Assembly (NCBI GenBank): GCA_015178975.1
Contig: WHVD01000004.1
Location: forward strand, 372,001 to 436,000
Direction: 5' to 3'
DNA length: 64,000 nucleotides
Source: Hysterangium stoloniferum
Lineage: Eukaryota; Basidiomycota; Agaricomycetes; Hysterangiales; Hysterangiaceae
Shown: positions 31,373 to 56,865 of the stretch, piece by piece
Numbering within the stretch: position 1 is the stretch's first letter
Layout of the letters: every line of letters starts with the position of its first letter
Notes under the pieces: model-generated
The model's database searches: none
What the model saw: only the letters and a program-made list of their open reading frames with translations
What the model was told of the DNA's origin: nothing
Position numbers and translations under genes: made by a program

Positions 31373-33962
31373 GTTGAGAGGACCATGCTATATTGTTCAG
31401 AACAGAAAAGCTATGATGGGAGTGCAGGAAAAAATGTATGCTTATCTAACATAGTTAAAGGTCTGCTGTAGTATGCCTGGGTGCCAGGCTTACACTCCCC
31501 CCCAAACAAAACTTCTCTCACAACCCCAAATTACCTTACAAAAAGTCAAATTATCTTTGGCAAAAATGGCATTCAAGTTCAGCAGCATCTGTGATTGGCC
31601 CACATCCCAGGATTCCCAGTGGTGATGGAAGTTCAAGGTGGCCTGCATGTAAAAATTAAAATGAGGTTGAAATGAATTTGAGGGGGGGGGATATTATGGT
31701 TGATGATTAATATTCAGAATCAGTGTCATCATCCTGATATACCCTGTCTGGTTGGTCTTCTCCATTATTGTTGGTAAGGATGAAACCAGCTGTCTCCTTC
31801 TTGACAGGGACAAAGTTGCAACCAGGTAAGATGCCAAGCATTGCATCTCCAGGGCATGTTCAACCAACATGGTCAGTCCAGCCATCATCTGTGGGAACCT
31901 TTCAGCACTTCCAGCATCCTGCAAGATCAGTGAGGTGTGTTCTCTCTGCATCTGTAAGGTGAGGAAGTCCAGTATGAGGAGCAGTTGTGGTTGGGACAGA
32001 GACAACAGCAGCCAGGGGTGAGAGTATGTGGAACAAGTGGTTATACAACCAGCAACACCTTTGGCAATGAGGCTCTCCTATTGCATGGAGAGCAGAGAAA
32101 CAAGATTGTCAAATCCAATAGTCTCCATGTTGAATTCTGGCATGACCATGATATGCAAGAGGGGGACAGGATGGGAATGAAATAGAAGTTGACAAGATGA
32201 CAGAAATACCAACTGCATTCCAGGCTTCAGCAAGGGCAGCAGCATAATCAAGGAATTGTGGTTTTACTTGTTCACAGAGGAAGAATGACCACAGAGCACC
32301 CTTTGGCATAAACCTCTCCTTAATCTTTGATTTAAATAAGTCCCATGACAACAACTTTAAAAATTCCTTCCTTCCACTGCTCTACCATGTTGCCATTGTC
32401 AGTTCAAGTAACTGAGTACCAGTCAGATGTATTTGTGTGGTGATGTTGAGTGCTGGTGTCTTGTCAGTCTTGGTGGATGCATGAAATGCATGAATGGTGA
32501 ATCCATCCTCACACTGGCCAAGCCAAGCCTCAAGTGCAATTGGAGTAAGGGGACCAAGGAAAGGGGATATTATCTTTGAAGCCATGGATTCTAATGAATG
32601 ATGAGGCTGGGTAGGTGTTAAGATCTAAGCCAGGAAGAGGGGGAAAGCTCTACTCAGAGGGCTGACAATAGAGATCATACTGCTCCAGTATTTCAAACAG
32701 AGCAGATAGTATGATATGAGTAGAAATCAACACTTAGCTTAATCAACTGGGGGGCCAGATCACTAAGGGTCAAAGAGTAGAAGGTTGCAGCTTGCCAAAG
32801 ACCATTTGTTAAGAATGTAGTGATGAGAGGAAATGGTGAAAGAACTAAGAGGGGCTAATCTAAGTTGATATTCTAACTGAAGAACTGTAGTGTACATGGA
32901 AGGAACTTTATACTACATCAAGATGGGTGATCAGAAGGCTGACCAGAGAAGTGAAGTGTAGGATGGATCAAAGGGAAGTGATGATGAGGTAGGGAGGGAC
33001 AGAAACTAATGTATGGTACTAAGAAACAATACTAGGTGGCAAATAAGGATATATGTGGAGACAGAAAAGGGAGGAGTGGATGGAGTGGAGATGGAATGGG
33101 GCTGGAGTGTACTATAAACAAGTATCAGGGGTGCCGTGAGGGATAATGACATGAGCAGAGGCTCCAATAACAAGATGATGAGGGTTTTCTAGTGAGAATC
33201 AAATCATGGGGGTCCAAAAATGATGGGATCCTAACAGTAGGAATAGGAGGTTGGGTATGGGAAACCTTCTTGGGGAGTGCCACCCAGTGTGATGAGCAAA
33301 TGGACAGGCTTGGGAGAGTACCAACAAATGCAGGTAGATCTTCATCAGATGATAACATGTTGTCAGATTCAGTTGGGGACCTGTGGTGGTGTTGAGAGGT
33401 CCTAGAATAGGAAGTTGATGTGTAGCAGCTGTATTTCAAGTAAAGTGGGTGCACTGATTGTCCTCCAGGGTGGAAAAGCAAAGTGGAAAGAAAAAAGGGC
33501 CAGTCTCAGGGGAAGAGTGTGGCTGTCATCAATCATCCTCACTGAGTGTCCATGGGTCACACAAGTTAGTGTCGAGTGCCGCACAATCCCTGGCATGCCG
33601 GGAGTAGTTCGGCACTCAACGTCCAGCTGAGCATATGTAGGATTCACATGCCTTGTGTTCTCGTATGACGTCGCTGTCGATCCTCAGTCCTTTCTGTTTT
33701 TCTCATCACTGACTTCTGATCCTTATCTCTACATATCTACACAATTATCTTCCCACGCACACGCGGAGAGCTAACGCTCTTCCTCTACCCAACCACTCAG
33801 CTCTTCACTGTCTAGTCTGTAATAGTCGATGCTGGATGAGAGGACCACACTATATTGTTGAGAACAGAACAGCTATGATAGGAGTACAGGAAAAAATGTA
33901 TGCTTATCTAACATACAGTAGTTAAAGGTCCACTGTAGTATCCCTGGGGTGCCAGGCTTACA
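31373..33962 (-). mobile_element. degenerate gag-like retroelement between ~115-bp direct repeats
   Basis: Nearly matching blocks (GAGAGGACCA ... GCTATGAT...GGAGT ... TATGCTTATCTAACATA ... GCCAGGCTTAC) lie at 31376-31492 and 33838-33962. Between them minus-strand frames give gag-like pieces: ISPFLGPLTPIALEAWLGQC, LLSWDLFKSKIKERFMPKG, LDYAAALAEAWNAVG and SQPQLLLILDFLTLQMQRE. Frame changes and stops separate them and no pol is present. A third copy of the terminal block lies at 49221-49311 and 49728-49740, split by the miniature element. Confidence 0.6.
33570..33837 (+). mobile_element. LTR with 5' terminal hairpin, inserted in the gag-like element
   Basis: The sequence from TGTCGAGTGCCGCACAATCC to about AGTCGATGCTGGA interrupts a stretch that elsewhere (48793-48843) continues directly from CACACAAGTTGAGAG. 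Its first about 48 bases form a hairpin: arms GAGTGCCG 33574-33581 and CGGCACTC 33610-33617, with an inner GGCATGCC core. It is the same family as the fragment at 24400-24510. No clear target duplication was found. Confidence 0.45.
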
Positions 33963-48843: not shown

Positions 48844-49220
48844 TGTTAGAAAGTAAGACTAATAATAAACTCAGTCTCATATATGGGTATAATGGACTAG
48901 TATATAAAATACCTAATAATAAACTAAAGTACATGTAAGTATACCAAAACGCATAAATAAAAGTAAAGCGGCTCACCTCAGTCTCGTATATGGGTATAAC
49001 GGACTGAGGTGTGGATACGTTCTGGCTACAGTATATATACTGAATATATCAATTAGTGATAGGAACCAAGGAAATAAGGGGAATATGAGATAAAGAGAGC
49101 AACGAGACATGCGGCTACACCTTGGTTCCTTATGTGTCCACGTGGTCTCTTATTACTTCGACCCTGCATACTCTTGTTCATCCAAATATAGCAAGGGAGG
49201 TTCTACGGTGTTATCCAACA
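48844..49220 (+). mobile_element. solo LTR, TGTTAGAAAG...TATCCAACA
   Basis: 377 bp flanked by GAGAG (48839-48843, 49221-49225). The empty site CACACAAGTTGAGAGGACCATGC is present at about 31364-31386. It carries the same CACCTCAGT...ACTGAGGTG hairpin as the LTR at 40401-40770, from which it differs by roughly 20 percent. Confidence 0.85.
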
Positions 49221-49334
49221 GAGAGGACCATGCTATACTGTTCAGAACAGAACAGCTATGATGGTAGTACAGGAAAAATGTATGCTTATCTAACATAGTT
49301 AAAGGTCTGCTTGTTAAAAGTGTAGAAAATGAAT

Positions 49335-49405
49335 GGCCAGACTGGGGATTGAACCCAGGGCTTCTGCATATATAGCAGGGGTGTTAACCATTACACCACC
49401 TGACC
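49335..49405 (-). tRNA. tRNA-like gene inside LTR 1 of the miniature element
   Basis: 71 nt reading GGTCAGGTGGTGTAATGGTT on the minus strand. All seven acceptor pairs form (GGTCAGG with TCTGGCC, two wobble). The D stem is GTGT/ACAC and the T arm CTGGG-TTCAATC-CCCAG is perfect. A box TGGTGTAATGG and B box GGTTCAATCCC fit the Pol III consensus. The anticodon stem CCTGC/GCAGA has a mismatch and the loop TATATAT lacks the universal U33, so decoding is doubtful though transcription is plausible. Confidence 0.6.
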
Positions 49406-49617
49406 CTGGGAAGCACTGCTAGCATTACTCAATCTAACACACTCCCTTAATGCTAGCACTCAACTATACTATAAGCAGATATAGGTCCTCTCTGGCTCTT
49501 TTGTCCAGACTTGTCCACTATACCACACACAAATATAGCTGTTCACTCTACACACAGGAACCATGCCCTATAGCACACAGCGGGGCCCATAACCTGTTAA
49601 AAGTGTAGAAAATGAAT

Positions 49618-49688
49618 GGCCAGACTGGGGATTGAACCCAGGGCTTCTGCATATATAGCAGGGGTGTTAACCATTACACCACCTGACC
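49618..49688 (-). tRNA. tRNA-like gene inside LTR 2 of the miniature element
   Basis: Identical to the copy at 49335-49405, as expected for LTRs copied from one template. Same intact acceptor, D and T arms, same atypical anticodon loop. Confidence 0.6.
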
Positions 49689-49727
49689 CTGGGAAGCACT
49701 GCTAGCATTACTCAATCTAACACTGCT

Positions 49728-52679: not shown

Positions 52680-52713
52680 GTATATTAGATCTTAATTCTG
52701 TGACTCCCTCATC

Positions 52714-53908
52714 ATGGGTCCCAAACACAAAGCTGCCGAAGGAGCATCTCAACTTCAATCCCTGTTGCAACTTTATCCCACCCAACCCAAAACCCCAAAT
52801 CAGCCAACAACATCAGCTTCCACCGAAGAAGTTACTGAGGTAACAAAGGATCCCAACAATCCCAACACTTCTGACAATGAAGCAGAAGATCAGCCAGTGA
52901 CATTGAAAAAGAAATCTTCCAATGAACCAACTGAAATGTTGTTTATCAACTCCATTGTGAAATTCGCTGACTATTTGAAATCTGCTGAGGATAGTAAAGA
53001 ATCATCCCGCACCAGAGTCAAAGAACCCAAACCATTTACCGGCATGGATCCGAAAAAATTGAAGAATTTCCTTCTCCAATGCCGTTTCAGTTTCTGTGAT
53101 CGACCCGCTGCATTTAAATCTGACAGTCGAAAAGTCAATTTTGTGCTCTCTTATCTCAAGGATACCGCTCAGGATTGGTTTGAACCTGGACTATCTGGAA
53201 TATCCAACGAGACACCCGTATGGCTCAATGACTGGGACACATTTGTGGAAGAACTGGAAACTAATTTCAGACCTTACGATCAATCCAGCGAAGTGGAAAA
53301 TGAATTAATGACGCCTAAGATGAAGGACAATCAACAAGTCTCCGATTATCTCATCAAGTTCAATACCCTCACCACACGATGTGGATGGGATGATTCTGCC
53401 CTCAGACACCATTTCTATATGGGACTTCCATCATGCCTTAAAGATGAGATGTGCAAAGATGGAAAGCTGAAAACTCTCCAACTCATGTGGATTAAAGCTC
53501 AGACATCTGATGCCCGTTATTGGGAACAAAAAGCTGAGGTCTCCCGAGAGAATCAGATGGAACATTCTCAGAACAACAAGGTCTTCCAGCAACAATTCAG
53601 GGAATAATACTGGCAACTCTGGCACTAATACTGGCAAATCAAACTCTGATCTGAAAAAAGACAAGAAATCCAACAAGGATAAACAGTCAACTTCCGACAA
53701 ACCTGACATTTCCCATTTGTTAGGCACCGACGGTAAACTCACCCTGAAGGAGAAACAACGATGTATGGACAACGACCTCTGCCTTTTCTGTGGGAAAGGC
53801 GGACACAAGGTTTCCGACTGTACCATTAAATCTAACTCTTCCAAAGCCCACGCAGCAACTTCCATTACATCTAAGGAAAAACCCGCTGCAGAGTCGAAAA
53901 AAGAGTAA
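52714..53908 (+). pseudogene. gypsy gag (capsid and nucleocapsid), frame broken
   Basis: The frame opens MGPKHKAAEGASQLQSLLQL and runs 297 codons to 53607, covering an acidic N-terminus and the gag domain (KPFTGMDPKKLKNFLLQCRF, DTAQDWFEPGLSGI, FRPYDQSSEVENELMTPKMK). Coding then switches to another frame (ends 53908) carrying an Asn/Ser/Lys-rich stretch and the zinc knuckle CLFCGKGGHKVSDC, which is a complete CCHC. A small indel near 53560 therefore separates capsid from nucleocapsid. Confidence 0.8.
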
Positions 53909-55129
53909 GCAACCCTCCAGAATCTGCATGGACAGAGGGTTGCATTGACTCTCTCCGTGTTTCCAAGATTATCCATCTCAATGCGTCTGTTCTCTCTAAT
54001 CCCAATTCATTATTTGTAAAACTTGTCTCTGACCTTCTTGGAAATTTAGTGTTCCGAGCTCTGATAGATTCTGGCTCCACACACTGTTTAGTAGATACCA
54101 CCTTTTCCATGAAACATAATCTGAAACTCCATTCTGTTCCCGCAATTTCTTTGCGTCTGTTTGACGGCACTAGCAATACAGCAATTACCCAAGCCTGCGA
54201 CATGTCTATCCAGTTCCCATGTGGAACATCCCAGACGGTTACTTTTTTTTTGTAACACAGTTGGACTCTAGCTGTTCAGTAGTTCTTGGATACAACTGGC
54301 TCATCTGATATAATCCATTGATTGACTGGGTATTGGGCAGTATTAATTTCTGGATTCCCAACACTTCCATTCCTCCTGCAGCATCTTTTCCGGCCAAAGC
54401 CTTTTCGGCCTCAACGGCACCTCCGGCTTCTACTGAAACCTCCGCACCTCCAAAAATCTCTCTCATCAACGCTTTGGCATTTGTTAGAGTGAGTAAACTG
54501 GACGGATCACAGTGTTTTTCGATCAGCTTAAAAGTTGATGAAGCATCTGGACATTTTGCAACTCTAGAACTATCTGAGCTAAAAGCCGACCTGGAAGGAG
54601 TTCCTGAAAAATACCATGATTTTGCAGACATTTTCAGTAAGCAAAAAGCTGACCAGCTTGCACCACATAGGCCCTACAACTTAAAAATTGATATTGAGCC
54701 CAGTTCAAACCCTCCATTAGGACCTATTTACCCATTATCCCAATCAGAACTTTCGTCTATTTGGGAGTTCCTGGATGAACATCTGTCGATAGGTTTTATC
54801 CATCCCTCAAAGTCTCTGTATGGAGCACCCATCCTTTTCATCAGAAAGAAGGATGGCTCCCTTCAACTCTGTGCCGATTTCAGAGGATTAAATTCCATCA
54901 CACGGAAAGGTAAGTATCCACTTCCACTCATTACCAATTTACTCAATGCCCCACGGAAAGCTCGGATCTACACCAAAATAGACCTCAAACACGCCTATCA
55001 TTTGGTCCAAATTGCCGAGGGTGATGAATGGAAAACTGCTTTTCGGACTCGCTATGGATCCTTTGAATGGTTGGTTATGCTGTTCAGCCTTACCAATGCC
55101 CCTTCTGCTTTTCAACGTTTGTTAATGAT

Positions 55130-55673
55130 TGTTATGACCCATTCCCGGATGTTTCAATATCCGACTCCCGATCTCCGACTATGGAACATCATAGTTACCG
55201 TATCTTCTGCATCCTTCCCTTGTTCCACATTTGGTAATTTGTCTGTTGACAAGTATTCACTCGTTTGTCTATTATATTCCCATTTCAGAATATTGTCTCC
55301 CCAATATGTCCTATTGTATTTCCGTTTTCAGAATACTTCCGTTTCCATCTTATTATGGTCTCAGTTTGTAGTACAATAACAAGAAGACTTATATTAGTTT
55401 CCACGAATTTGTATTTTACCTTAGATCTGATATCGACTTAGTTTCTTATTCCTTCTTCCATCTTTCTGTATGCTCAATATTCGGAACTCTTCGGAACTCT
55501 GAATATCTGTATCTTCCATTGTAAGTCTCACCTCTGAAATTAAGGACTTTGAGCATTTGCGTAGAGGCGCAGCACATAAGCTGAAGCCAACGTCCTGACC
55601 CTATCTGACAGTTCCCAACTTTCCGGTGACTTTCCGATAGTTCTGGAATAAGTTCCCGACACGGCACTTAACA
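55130..55673 (+). mobile_element. solo LTR inserted in the gypsy reverse transcriptase
   Basis: 544 bp, TGTTATGACCCATTCCC...CGGCACTTAACA, flanked by ATGAT (55125-55129, 55674-55678). It is the same LTR family as the host element. It interrupts the polymerase just before the YLDD motif. Confidence 0.88.
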
Positions 55674-56865
55674 ATGATATATTTTCCGACATGCTTGACA
55701 TATGTGTTATAGTCTATTTGGACGACATTTTGGTATTTTCCAAGGATCCCGCTCTTCATGATGAACAAGTCCATGAAGTCTTCTGAAGACTCTGCAAAAA
55801 CGGTCTTTTCGCCAATGGTAAAAAATGCTACTTTGACATGGATTCTATTGAATCCTTAGGTTTCATTATTGGACCTGAGGGTCTCCGTATGGACAAACCC
55901 AAGGTTCAAGTTATCCGTGATTGGCCCAAACCACAGAAAGTCAAAGATATTCAGTCATTTTTAGGTTTCGCCAACTTTTACTGTCATTTTATTCAGAATT
56001 ACTTGGATATTACAATACCACTTACTCGTCTTACCTGTAAAACTCAACCATGGGTCTTTGATGACAAATGCTGCTCTGCTTTCCAGACTTTGAAAAATGC
56101 TTTCACTTCCACCCCGATTCTTTCTCATTGGAAACCTGATGTTCCAATTATTGTGGAAACCGATGCTTCTGATTATGCAATTGCCACGATTCTTTCCATT
56201 CAAGATTCCAATGGTGAAATTCATCCAGTCGCATTCCTTTCTTGGACACTTTCAGTATCCAAACTAAACTATGACATTCATGATAAGGAACTTTTGGCAA
56301 TTTTTGAAGCTTTCAAGCATTGGCACCATTATCTTGAAGGTTCCACAACTCCCGTTGATGTTGTTACCCGATCATACAAAGCTCTAATATTTTTCTACCA
56401 CTAAACTTTTGACCTGCCAGCAAGCCCACTGGTCCAAATTCCTTTCCACTTTCAACATGATTATCCATTTCTGACCCAGATGCCTTGGTGGAAAACCAGA
56501 TGCCATGACTTGATGATGGGACGTCTATCCTAAAGAGGGGGAAAGTAACTACACTGTTGTTAATCCATATAACTTGAAACCGGTTTTTACAATGCAACAA
56601 CTTTCCACATCTATTCGAGCGACTTCACTCTACTATCCAATTATGTGTAGCATTATGATTATGGACATTGAGAAATTACATCAAGATATCCTTTCTGCAC
56701 TCACTTCCGATCCGGCTCTCAAGCCACACCTAGAAGTTTCCGATAATTCCGACCAACCCCAATGGTCACAAGACTCTCAAGGTTTTATCCGTCTCGATGG
56801 ACAAATTTACATTCCAGATTCCAACAATCTCTGACTCTGCGTAATTCAGTACAAACACGATCATC

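Follow-up and report, generated by a model that had tools for sequence, protein, structure and literature searches.

Between positions 49307 and 49727 of the window, a stretch of 64,000 nucleotides (G000:C334:372001-436000 of the 111-Mb assembly), lies a short element whose two identical terminal repeats each hold a tRNA-like unit. The locus raises the question of what kind of element this is and how it is transcribed and moved. We consider it very probable that it is a recently inserted LTR retroelement of the Helenus (TRIMp3) type, without coding capacity and mobilized by Copia; with less assurance, we suggest that it is copied from an RNA started by RNA polymerase III (Pol III). This reading builds on features that can be read in the sequence itself, namely LTRs, target-site duplications, a primer site, a purine tract with an inverted repeat, tRNA-like units, near-identical copies and fusions with Copia elements.

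Architecture of the element

The element, here called family A, has its sense strand on the minus strand and measures 411 bp between the duplications. Its features are as follows, with LTR bases counted in the sense direction.

49307..49311, target-site duplication CTGCT, left copy
49312..49439, minus strand, 3' LTR, 128 bp, no difference from the 5' LTR
49334..49405, minus strand, tRNA-like unit of the 3' LTR (ARAGORN, Rfam RF00005)
49394..49401, minus strand, purine-tract look-alike AGGTGGTG, LTR bases 39-46
49417..49427, minus strand, right arm TAATGCTAGCA of the inverted repeat that flanks the purine tract, LTR bases 13-23
49440..49447, minus strand, polypurine-type octamer AGGGAGTG, abutting the 3' LTR
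49448..49458, minus strand, left arm TGCTAGCATTA of the inverted repeat
49440..49594, minus strand, interior, 155 bp
49583..49594, minus strand, putative primer-binding site GGTTATGGGCCC, read in the sequence and fitting the type described in PMC10886601 as complementary to the initiator tRNA anticodon arm
49595..49722, minus strand, 5' LTR, 128 bp
49599..49602, minus strand, T4 run near the LTR end, LTR bases 121-124
49609..49612, minus strand, T4 run 4 nt past the tRNA-like unit, LTR bases 111-114 (TTAT in a subfamily)
49617..49688, minus strand, tRNA-like unit of the 5' LTR, LTR bases 35-106, named tRNA-Ile(TAT) (ARAGORN, Rfam RF00005)
49628..49638, minus strand, B-box-like GGTTCAATCCC of the 5' LTR, LTR bases 85-95, read in the sequence
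49671..49681, minus strand, A-box-like TGGTGTAATGG of the 5' LTR, LTR bases 42-52, read in the sequence
49723..49727, target-site duplication CTGCT, right copy
31376..31481, paralogous empty site, 100/106 identical
33838-33949, second paralogous empty site, less clean, 96/112 identical

The initial annotation had described a 5-bp duplication, two identical 128-bp LTRs with TG...CA ends, an interior of 155 bp that holds a polypurine tract and a primer site of the half-initiator-tRNA type, and an empty site elsewhere in the window. All of these are borne out: CTGCT stands at both ends of the element, the LTRs were re-read at their listed positions with the termini TGTTA...AACA, the interior holds both motifs, and a closely similar target, free of the element, is found at 31376-31481. 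The interior has no open reading frame of 150 aa or more. With two LTRs, a length of 411 bp, which is below 1000 bp, and no protein genes, the element has the makeup of a terminal-repeat retrotransposon in miniature (TRIM).

A Ty3/gypsy-type element is also represented in the window, by stretches of gag, reverse transcriptase and RNase H at 52696-56404 (Pfam), and short hairpin repeats of the kind CTCAGTC...GACTGAG lie at 48870-49011. By eye, similar hairpins occur in the LTR of the fusion partner at L127 and ahead of the interior at L104.

Copies of the element in the genome

A search with the first 30 LTR bases, allowing up to 3 mismatches, gave 246 genome matches, and the first 30 interior bases gave 80 under the same threshold; the backward-pattern control gave 0 for each. 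The loci that were fetched cover the 80 interiors and 30 LTR places (coverage checked by hand). Viral contigs showed no exact match to a 30-mer of the LTR.

Perfect 5-bp duplications flank 34/37 simple full copies of a first set, drawn from L002-L108 and the window (L001 was dropped as the window locus), with 33 distinct duplicated sequences. In this set, duplications are also found at 13/15 undeleted solo LTRs and all 3 three-LTR arrays. The duplications of L102 and L106 were read by eye. A copy's own flanks match over 5 bp in 34/37 cases, compared with 2/1332 mismatched flank pairs. Two of the three copies without a duplication, L097 and L100, have their flanks in common and probably represent a single locus present in two contigs. 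In the later set (L109-L132), judged by eye, six of the seven copies with both LTRs are duplicated (L110, L112, L123, whose 3' LTR is cut at its start, L128, L129 and L130; L114 lacks a duplication), as are the arrays L115 and L116. The initial annotation had proposed a TRIM whose LTRs each bear a tRNA-like unit, a reading to be given up if other copies lacked LTRs or duplications. The further copies have LTRs, and the duplications of the simple full copies support the proposal.

The LTR pair is identical in 31/52 full copies, insertions being disregarded; here the full-copy set holds copies spanning bases 2-410, and the LTR set used below holds matches spanning bases 3-126. As judged from its sequences, family A is young and the window copy was recently inserted. 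LTR bases 7 and 113 are subfamily markers, and all four combinations occur with matched LTRs, so recombination between copies is likely. These markers are too few for mapping the boundary of the R region, which was attempted with them.

Two copies are of separate interest. At L018 (G000:C25:178148-), the 3' LTR is reduced to bases 92-128 and the TTTCA duplication is intact. At L037/L073 (G000:C141:38801-39215), a family A copy sits inside the tRNA-like part of an opposite-oriented family A copy, with the duplication GCAGG.

Known relatives and related families

Helenus TRIMs were described in 2024 by Kojima from fungi, animals and plants, among the agaricomycetes from Agaricus, Coprinopsis and Amylostereum; the longest has 1263 bp, and the initiator tRNA anticodon-arm primer site is the commonest in fungi (PMC10886601, in the sections consulted). 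Family A shares with them LTRs that each contain a tRNA-like unit bearing A and B boxes (the same sections give the box consensus for such units), a polypurine tract before the 3' LTR and the 5-bp duplication of fungal members, present in 34/37 simple full copies. Its primer site fits the initiator type in sequence, and a genome search for the host initiator tRNA gene with one pattern gave no match. Placed by its described features, family A fits Helenus and is no new kind of element.

The primer-site motif CAGGTTATGGGCCC occurs at 856 genome sites (control 0), and a B-box-like word 16-46 nt before ACAGGTTATGGGCCC at 135 genome places (control 0). Two related families, B and C, each carry a tRNA-like unit of their own. 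Family B (L138) has an LTR of 255 bp, an interior of 66 bp and the duplication CATGT (by eye), and family C (L136, L137) forms an array with alternating interiors. For both, the comparison with Helenus covered LTRs, tRNA-like unit and primer site. Among the Copia reverse transcriptase matches listed, at least 9 of 21 carry such a primer site on their own strand, 2-5 kb upstream (counted by hand).

Cassandra, as portrayed in parts of PMC7215508, is alike in having a Pol III small-RNA gene in its LTRs and tandem arrays with common LTRs, but it is a plant element and carries 5S rRNA where the present families carry a tRNA-like unit; the same parts call its autonomous partners unknown. In the literature searched, including the main text of PMC10886601 as far as consulted, we found no description for Helenus of the fused insertions, the insertions starting at LTR base 47 or the limit on T runs reported below.

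The tRNA-like unit

Both units in the window are 72 nt long. The covariance search recommended in the initial annotation matches both with Rfam RF00005 at 46.8 bits, compared with a gathering score of 29. The annotated 71-nt unit at 49335-49405 is thus recovered by ARAGORN and Rfam, but with a length of 72 nt (49334-49405). As had been seen, the acceptor stem is paired at all seven positions, with two wobble pairs, and the odd loop without U33 reads TATATAT; by eye, pair 27-43 is C-A. Measured by U33 and a normal anticodon arm, the unit does not qualify as a functional tRNA gene. We call TGGTGTAATGG and GGTTCAATCCC A- and B-box-like by the box consensus. Only 34 bp of LTR sequence lie ahead of the unit. 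The minimum-energy fold of the whole 128-nt LTR shows no cloverleaf, and its stability is not unusual (z -1.37, with 22/200 shuffles equally good).

The name tRNA-Ile(TAT) given by ARAGORN would suit two tandem genuine tRNA-Ile genes with conserved flanks, a reading to which we assign practically no probability. The absence of U33, the LTR ends, the duplications and the 246 LTR matches all speak against it; the copies with duplications and the LTR matches rule it out. The 40 places scored were all at 100%, counted irrespective of whether they lie in an LTR. The suggested spread in the form of extra tRNA-like genes is true only insofar as each full insertion brings along two units that ARAGORN can call, and such elements inflate tRNA gene predictions.

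The initial annotation had suggested selection for the fold rather than for decoding. Among 136 distinct LTRs, stem variants present in at least 3 LTRs keep pairing in 6/6 cases and rarer ones in 2/21 (Fisher one-sided 9e-5), a split that was chosen after the data had been seen and that concerns LTR copies related by descent; with thresholds of 2, 4, 5 and 6, the Fisher values are 3e-4, 0.004, 0.019 and 0.30. The stem variants thus give modest support to selection on the fold. Between the family A unit and those of B and C, pairing is kept at 16/16 positions of the acceptor, D and T stems, with both partners replaced at 6 (by eye); an equal pattern would follow from two different tRNA origins, so these pairs alone are no proof of selection. 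By eye, a mismatch or bulge interrupts the anticodon arm in families B and C. The A and C units are 72% identical, and among 9 host tRNA predictions shorter than 80 nt the A unit reaches at most 59% identity and the C unit at most 68%, the 68% match being tRNA-Cys. By these identities, the A and C units may have separate origins.

Four LTRs without a tRNA-like unit were found at L116 (G000:C520:240840-242170), an array with three interiors. Their unit is deleted between CCCAG repeats, and the outer LTR pair differs from the inner pair. The array sits inside a TTTAT repeat, which indicates that the tRNA-less form inserted at least once. A genome search with one exact gapped pattern gave no further tRNA-less LTRs besides this contig. 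The tRNA-less form could, on this pattern, insert but has not visibly spread.

Fusions with Copia elements

At four loci (L021, L036, L121 and L127), a family A block of interior and LTR has a foreign LTR on one side and, on the other, a second GGTTATGGGCCC that leads into different sequence. The element at L036 encodes a copia-type gag and the one at L127 (L134) a copia-type gag and integrase core (Pfam). The L036 fusion on contig C135 is flanked by GCCAT, with an additional T on the left side, and the L127 fusion on C533 by TGAGA. No far LTR was found for L021 and L121 within 1.4 and 2.7 kb, respectively.

Family C is fused in a similar way to an element named Copia X here. Copia X has 66 5' junctions, of which, among the places listed, at least 6 follow a family C tRNA LTR (by hand); its RVT_2 frames reach 1386 aa on C14 and 1385 aa on C35. 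The layouts at three loci were taken from their ends and junctions only. C35 shows LTR_C-Copia X-LTR_X inside AGAGA, a repeat that lies in GA-rich DNA; C2 shows LTR_C-Copia X-LTR_X-interior C-LTR_C inside TTTTT; and C14 shows LTR_X-broken Copia stretch-LTR_C-Copia X-LTR_X inside GGAAC, where the Copia stretch breaks off near the end of the reverse transcriptase region. At C259, interior C comes ahead of the tRNA LTR that stands before Copia X, and the fetched stretch L147 holds no LTR_X. L145 is a normal Copia X copy with LTR_X ahead of the primer site. One-sided junctions for which no duplication of their own was seen are found at L104, L113 and L136 (within C2); L113 has Copia RNase H-like coding before the primer site (by eye).

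A 5-bp repeat thus stands outside the fusion at 5/5 loci with both ends read (C135, C533, C2, C35 and C14). An internal LTR together with a single outer duplication was used as the criterion of a single integration for plant template-switch complexes (Sabot and Schulman 2007, parts of PMC1950507), and by it each of the five fusions is best explained by a single reverse transcription and a single integration. The logic and the layout are the same, but the plant complexes join two similar elements, whereas here a TRIM is joined to a dissimilar Copia element at the primer site. The fusions point to the reverse transcription of TRIM and Copia in one Copia particle. TRIM RNA would enter Copia particles, a half tRNA would prime it at GGTTATGGGCCC, Copia reverse transcriptase would copy it and Copia integrase would insert the cDNA; if cDNAs of both kinds came together in one particle, strand transfer could splice them at the primer site that they have in common. 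Mobilization by Copia, a trait proposed for fungal Helenus members, thus follows by inference from fused insertions in single 5-bp repeats. Dependence on Copia is inferred for both groups, in PMC10886601 (sections consulted) from the primer site and interior similarity and here from the fused insertions.

The fusions might instead postdate insertion, if a one-LTR circle or an interior-LTR cDNA recombined at the primer-site region of a resident element by single-strand annealing, independently of integrase, and they would then be no sign of a shared particle. The observed junctions do lie in about 20 bp of common sequence, annealing at existing elements is described in parts of PMC12786077, and the outer LTRs of C135, C533 and C2 come from one family each, as such a route predicts. 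However, C35 begins with LTR_C at its left end and closes with LTR_X at its right end inside one repeat, and C14 has LTR_C after a broken-off Copia stretch, again in one repeat; a circle entering a resident element would not directly yield either. Moreover, family A shows 4 two-sided fusions over about 20 bp (L021, L036, L121 and L127) and 5 same-family arrays over 128 bp (L078, L082, L088, L115 and L116), so that fusions are nearly as common as arrays, against what recombination would lead one to expect from homology length. We regard a post-insertion origin as unlikely; it stays in contention for the fusions whose outer LTRs match.

What is new here is evidence on how the element moves, to which the TRIM-Copia fusions point. 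Fused insertions within one duplication can indicate the autonomous partner from genome sequence alone, and the same test is applicable to Pucciniales, to Cassandra and to animal Helenus.

Purine tract and insertions starting at LTR base 47

The purine tract is surrounded by an 11-bp inverted repeat, whose left arm ends at the start of the octamer AGGGAGTG and whose right arm lies inside the LTR. None of 5000 shuffles was equally good for the window element, and the full copies form 11/11 pairs in 47/52 cases and 10/11 in the remaining 5. Equally good shuffles number 31 of 5000 for family B, 12 of 5000 for family C, 285 of 5000 for the gag-only partner and 7/2000 for Copia X of C14; the C533 partner, with 29 nt of left side, has only a 5-bp stem (1060/2000 shuffles). 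An inverted repeat with a purine octamer at the loop border is reported for Ty1/copia elements in parts of PMC2829016. The layout is alike in that the left arm ends at the octamer and the right arm begins shortly inside the LTR, 12 bp here compared with an average of 18 in the classic elements of that account. Unlike those, the present repeats are in TRIMs, and the family A arms are unrelated to those of families B and C.

Four insertions have a 5' LTR that starts at base 47, each with a complete 3' LTR and a 5-bp duplication (C104, ATCAC; C57, GTCCG; C335, GAAGG; C540, GTTTT). The 8-mer just ahead of this base, AGGTGGTG, matches the octamer at 6/8 positions; counting the true tract, 283 nt hold three 8-mers of this quality. 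Base 47 could also be read as the 5' end of the RNA. To our knowledge, Pol III would not be expected to initiate within the A box, and because of this and the 6/8 match we hold that reading less likely and suggest second-strand priming at the look-alike tract.

Transcription of the element

Directed by the A and B boxes, Pol III would perhaps start the RNA shortly upstream of the unit, cross the 5' LTR owing to its having T4 stops only, and end within the 3' LTR or beyond it. Over the 22 bases that follow the unit, T runs are no longer than 4 in 134/136 LTRs and in 115/115 young ones, and the window interior has no T4. Among 38 host tRNA predictions, 23 of which form one Lys-type group, the first run of T4 or more is T5 or longer in 30 and T4 in 7, and 1 has none. 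As a Pol III stop, T4 is negligible in S. pombe (parts of PMC4982682) and causes very little pausing in S. cerevisiae (parts of PMC9278858); with such weak stops in yeasts, a transcript from the 5' LTR could cross the LTR and be whole. The latter source, as far as consulted, also reports that an RNA hairpin, for example an acceptor stem, aids T4 stops, which would favor a stop within the 5' LTR. In 51/136 LTRs the first T4 is missing (T113A), so this stop is not needed. From these runs, a leaky Pol III transcript across the 5' LTR appears plausible.

A rival reading makes the tRNA-like unit a passenger or relic fold and derives the TRIM RNA from Pol II, started at a TATA box in the anticodon loop or at flanking promoters. 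The loop TATATAT at LTR bases 66-72 could be such a box: TATAWA occurs within bases 63-76 in 111/115 young and 13/21 older LTRs, compared with 0.8% of 14-nt window stretches on one strand. The exact TGCTATATAAGCAG is present at this place in 5/136 LTRs, families B and C have TATATAAA and ATATAAAG at the TATA-like place, and partner LTRs carry TATATAAG (L021, L145) or TATAAAT (L121). Against a passenger role stand the stem variants, the common ones pairing and the rare ones mostly breaking pairs, the restriction of tRNA-less LTRs to one locus (by one exact gapped pattern) and the mere 34 bp of LTR ahead of the unit. On balance, we find the Pol II reading conceivable but doubtful and retain the Pol III start as a less certain part of the preferred reading. 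A bolder proposal makes the LTR a tuned double promoter, in which the Pol III fold and boxes, leaky runs of T4 kept below T5 and a TATA-type loop would yield uncapped RNA in Copia particles, and repeated splicing at the primer site would give rise to Copia elements with a tRNA 5' LTR; we think this quite unlikely. The very young copies make Pol III use testable in one organism.

Apart from this family, G000:C112:987000-1219000 and also C68, C526 and C290 hold many ARAGORN predictions of 94-97 nt, mostly tRNA-Lys(CTT). They have similar downstream sequence with a T4 or T5 run, and represent an expanded tRNA-derived repeat or a gene array.
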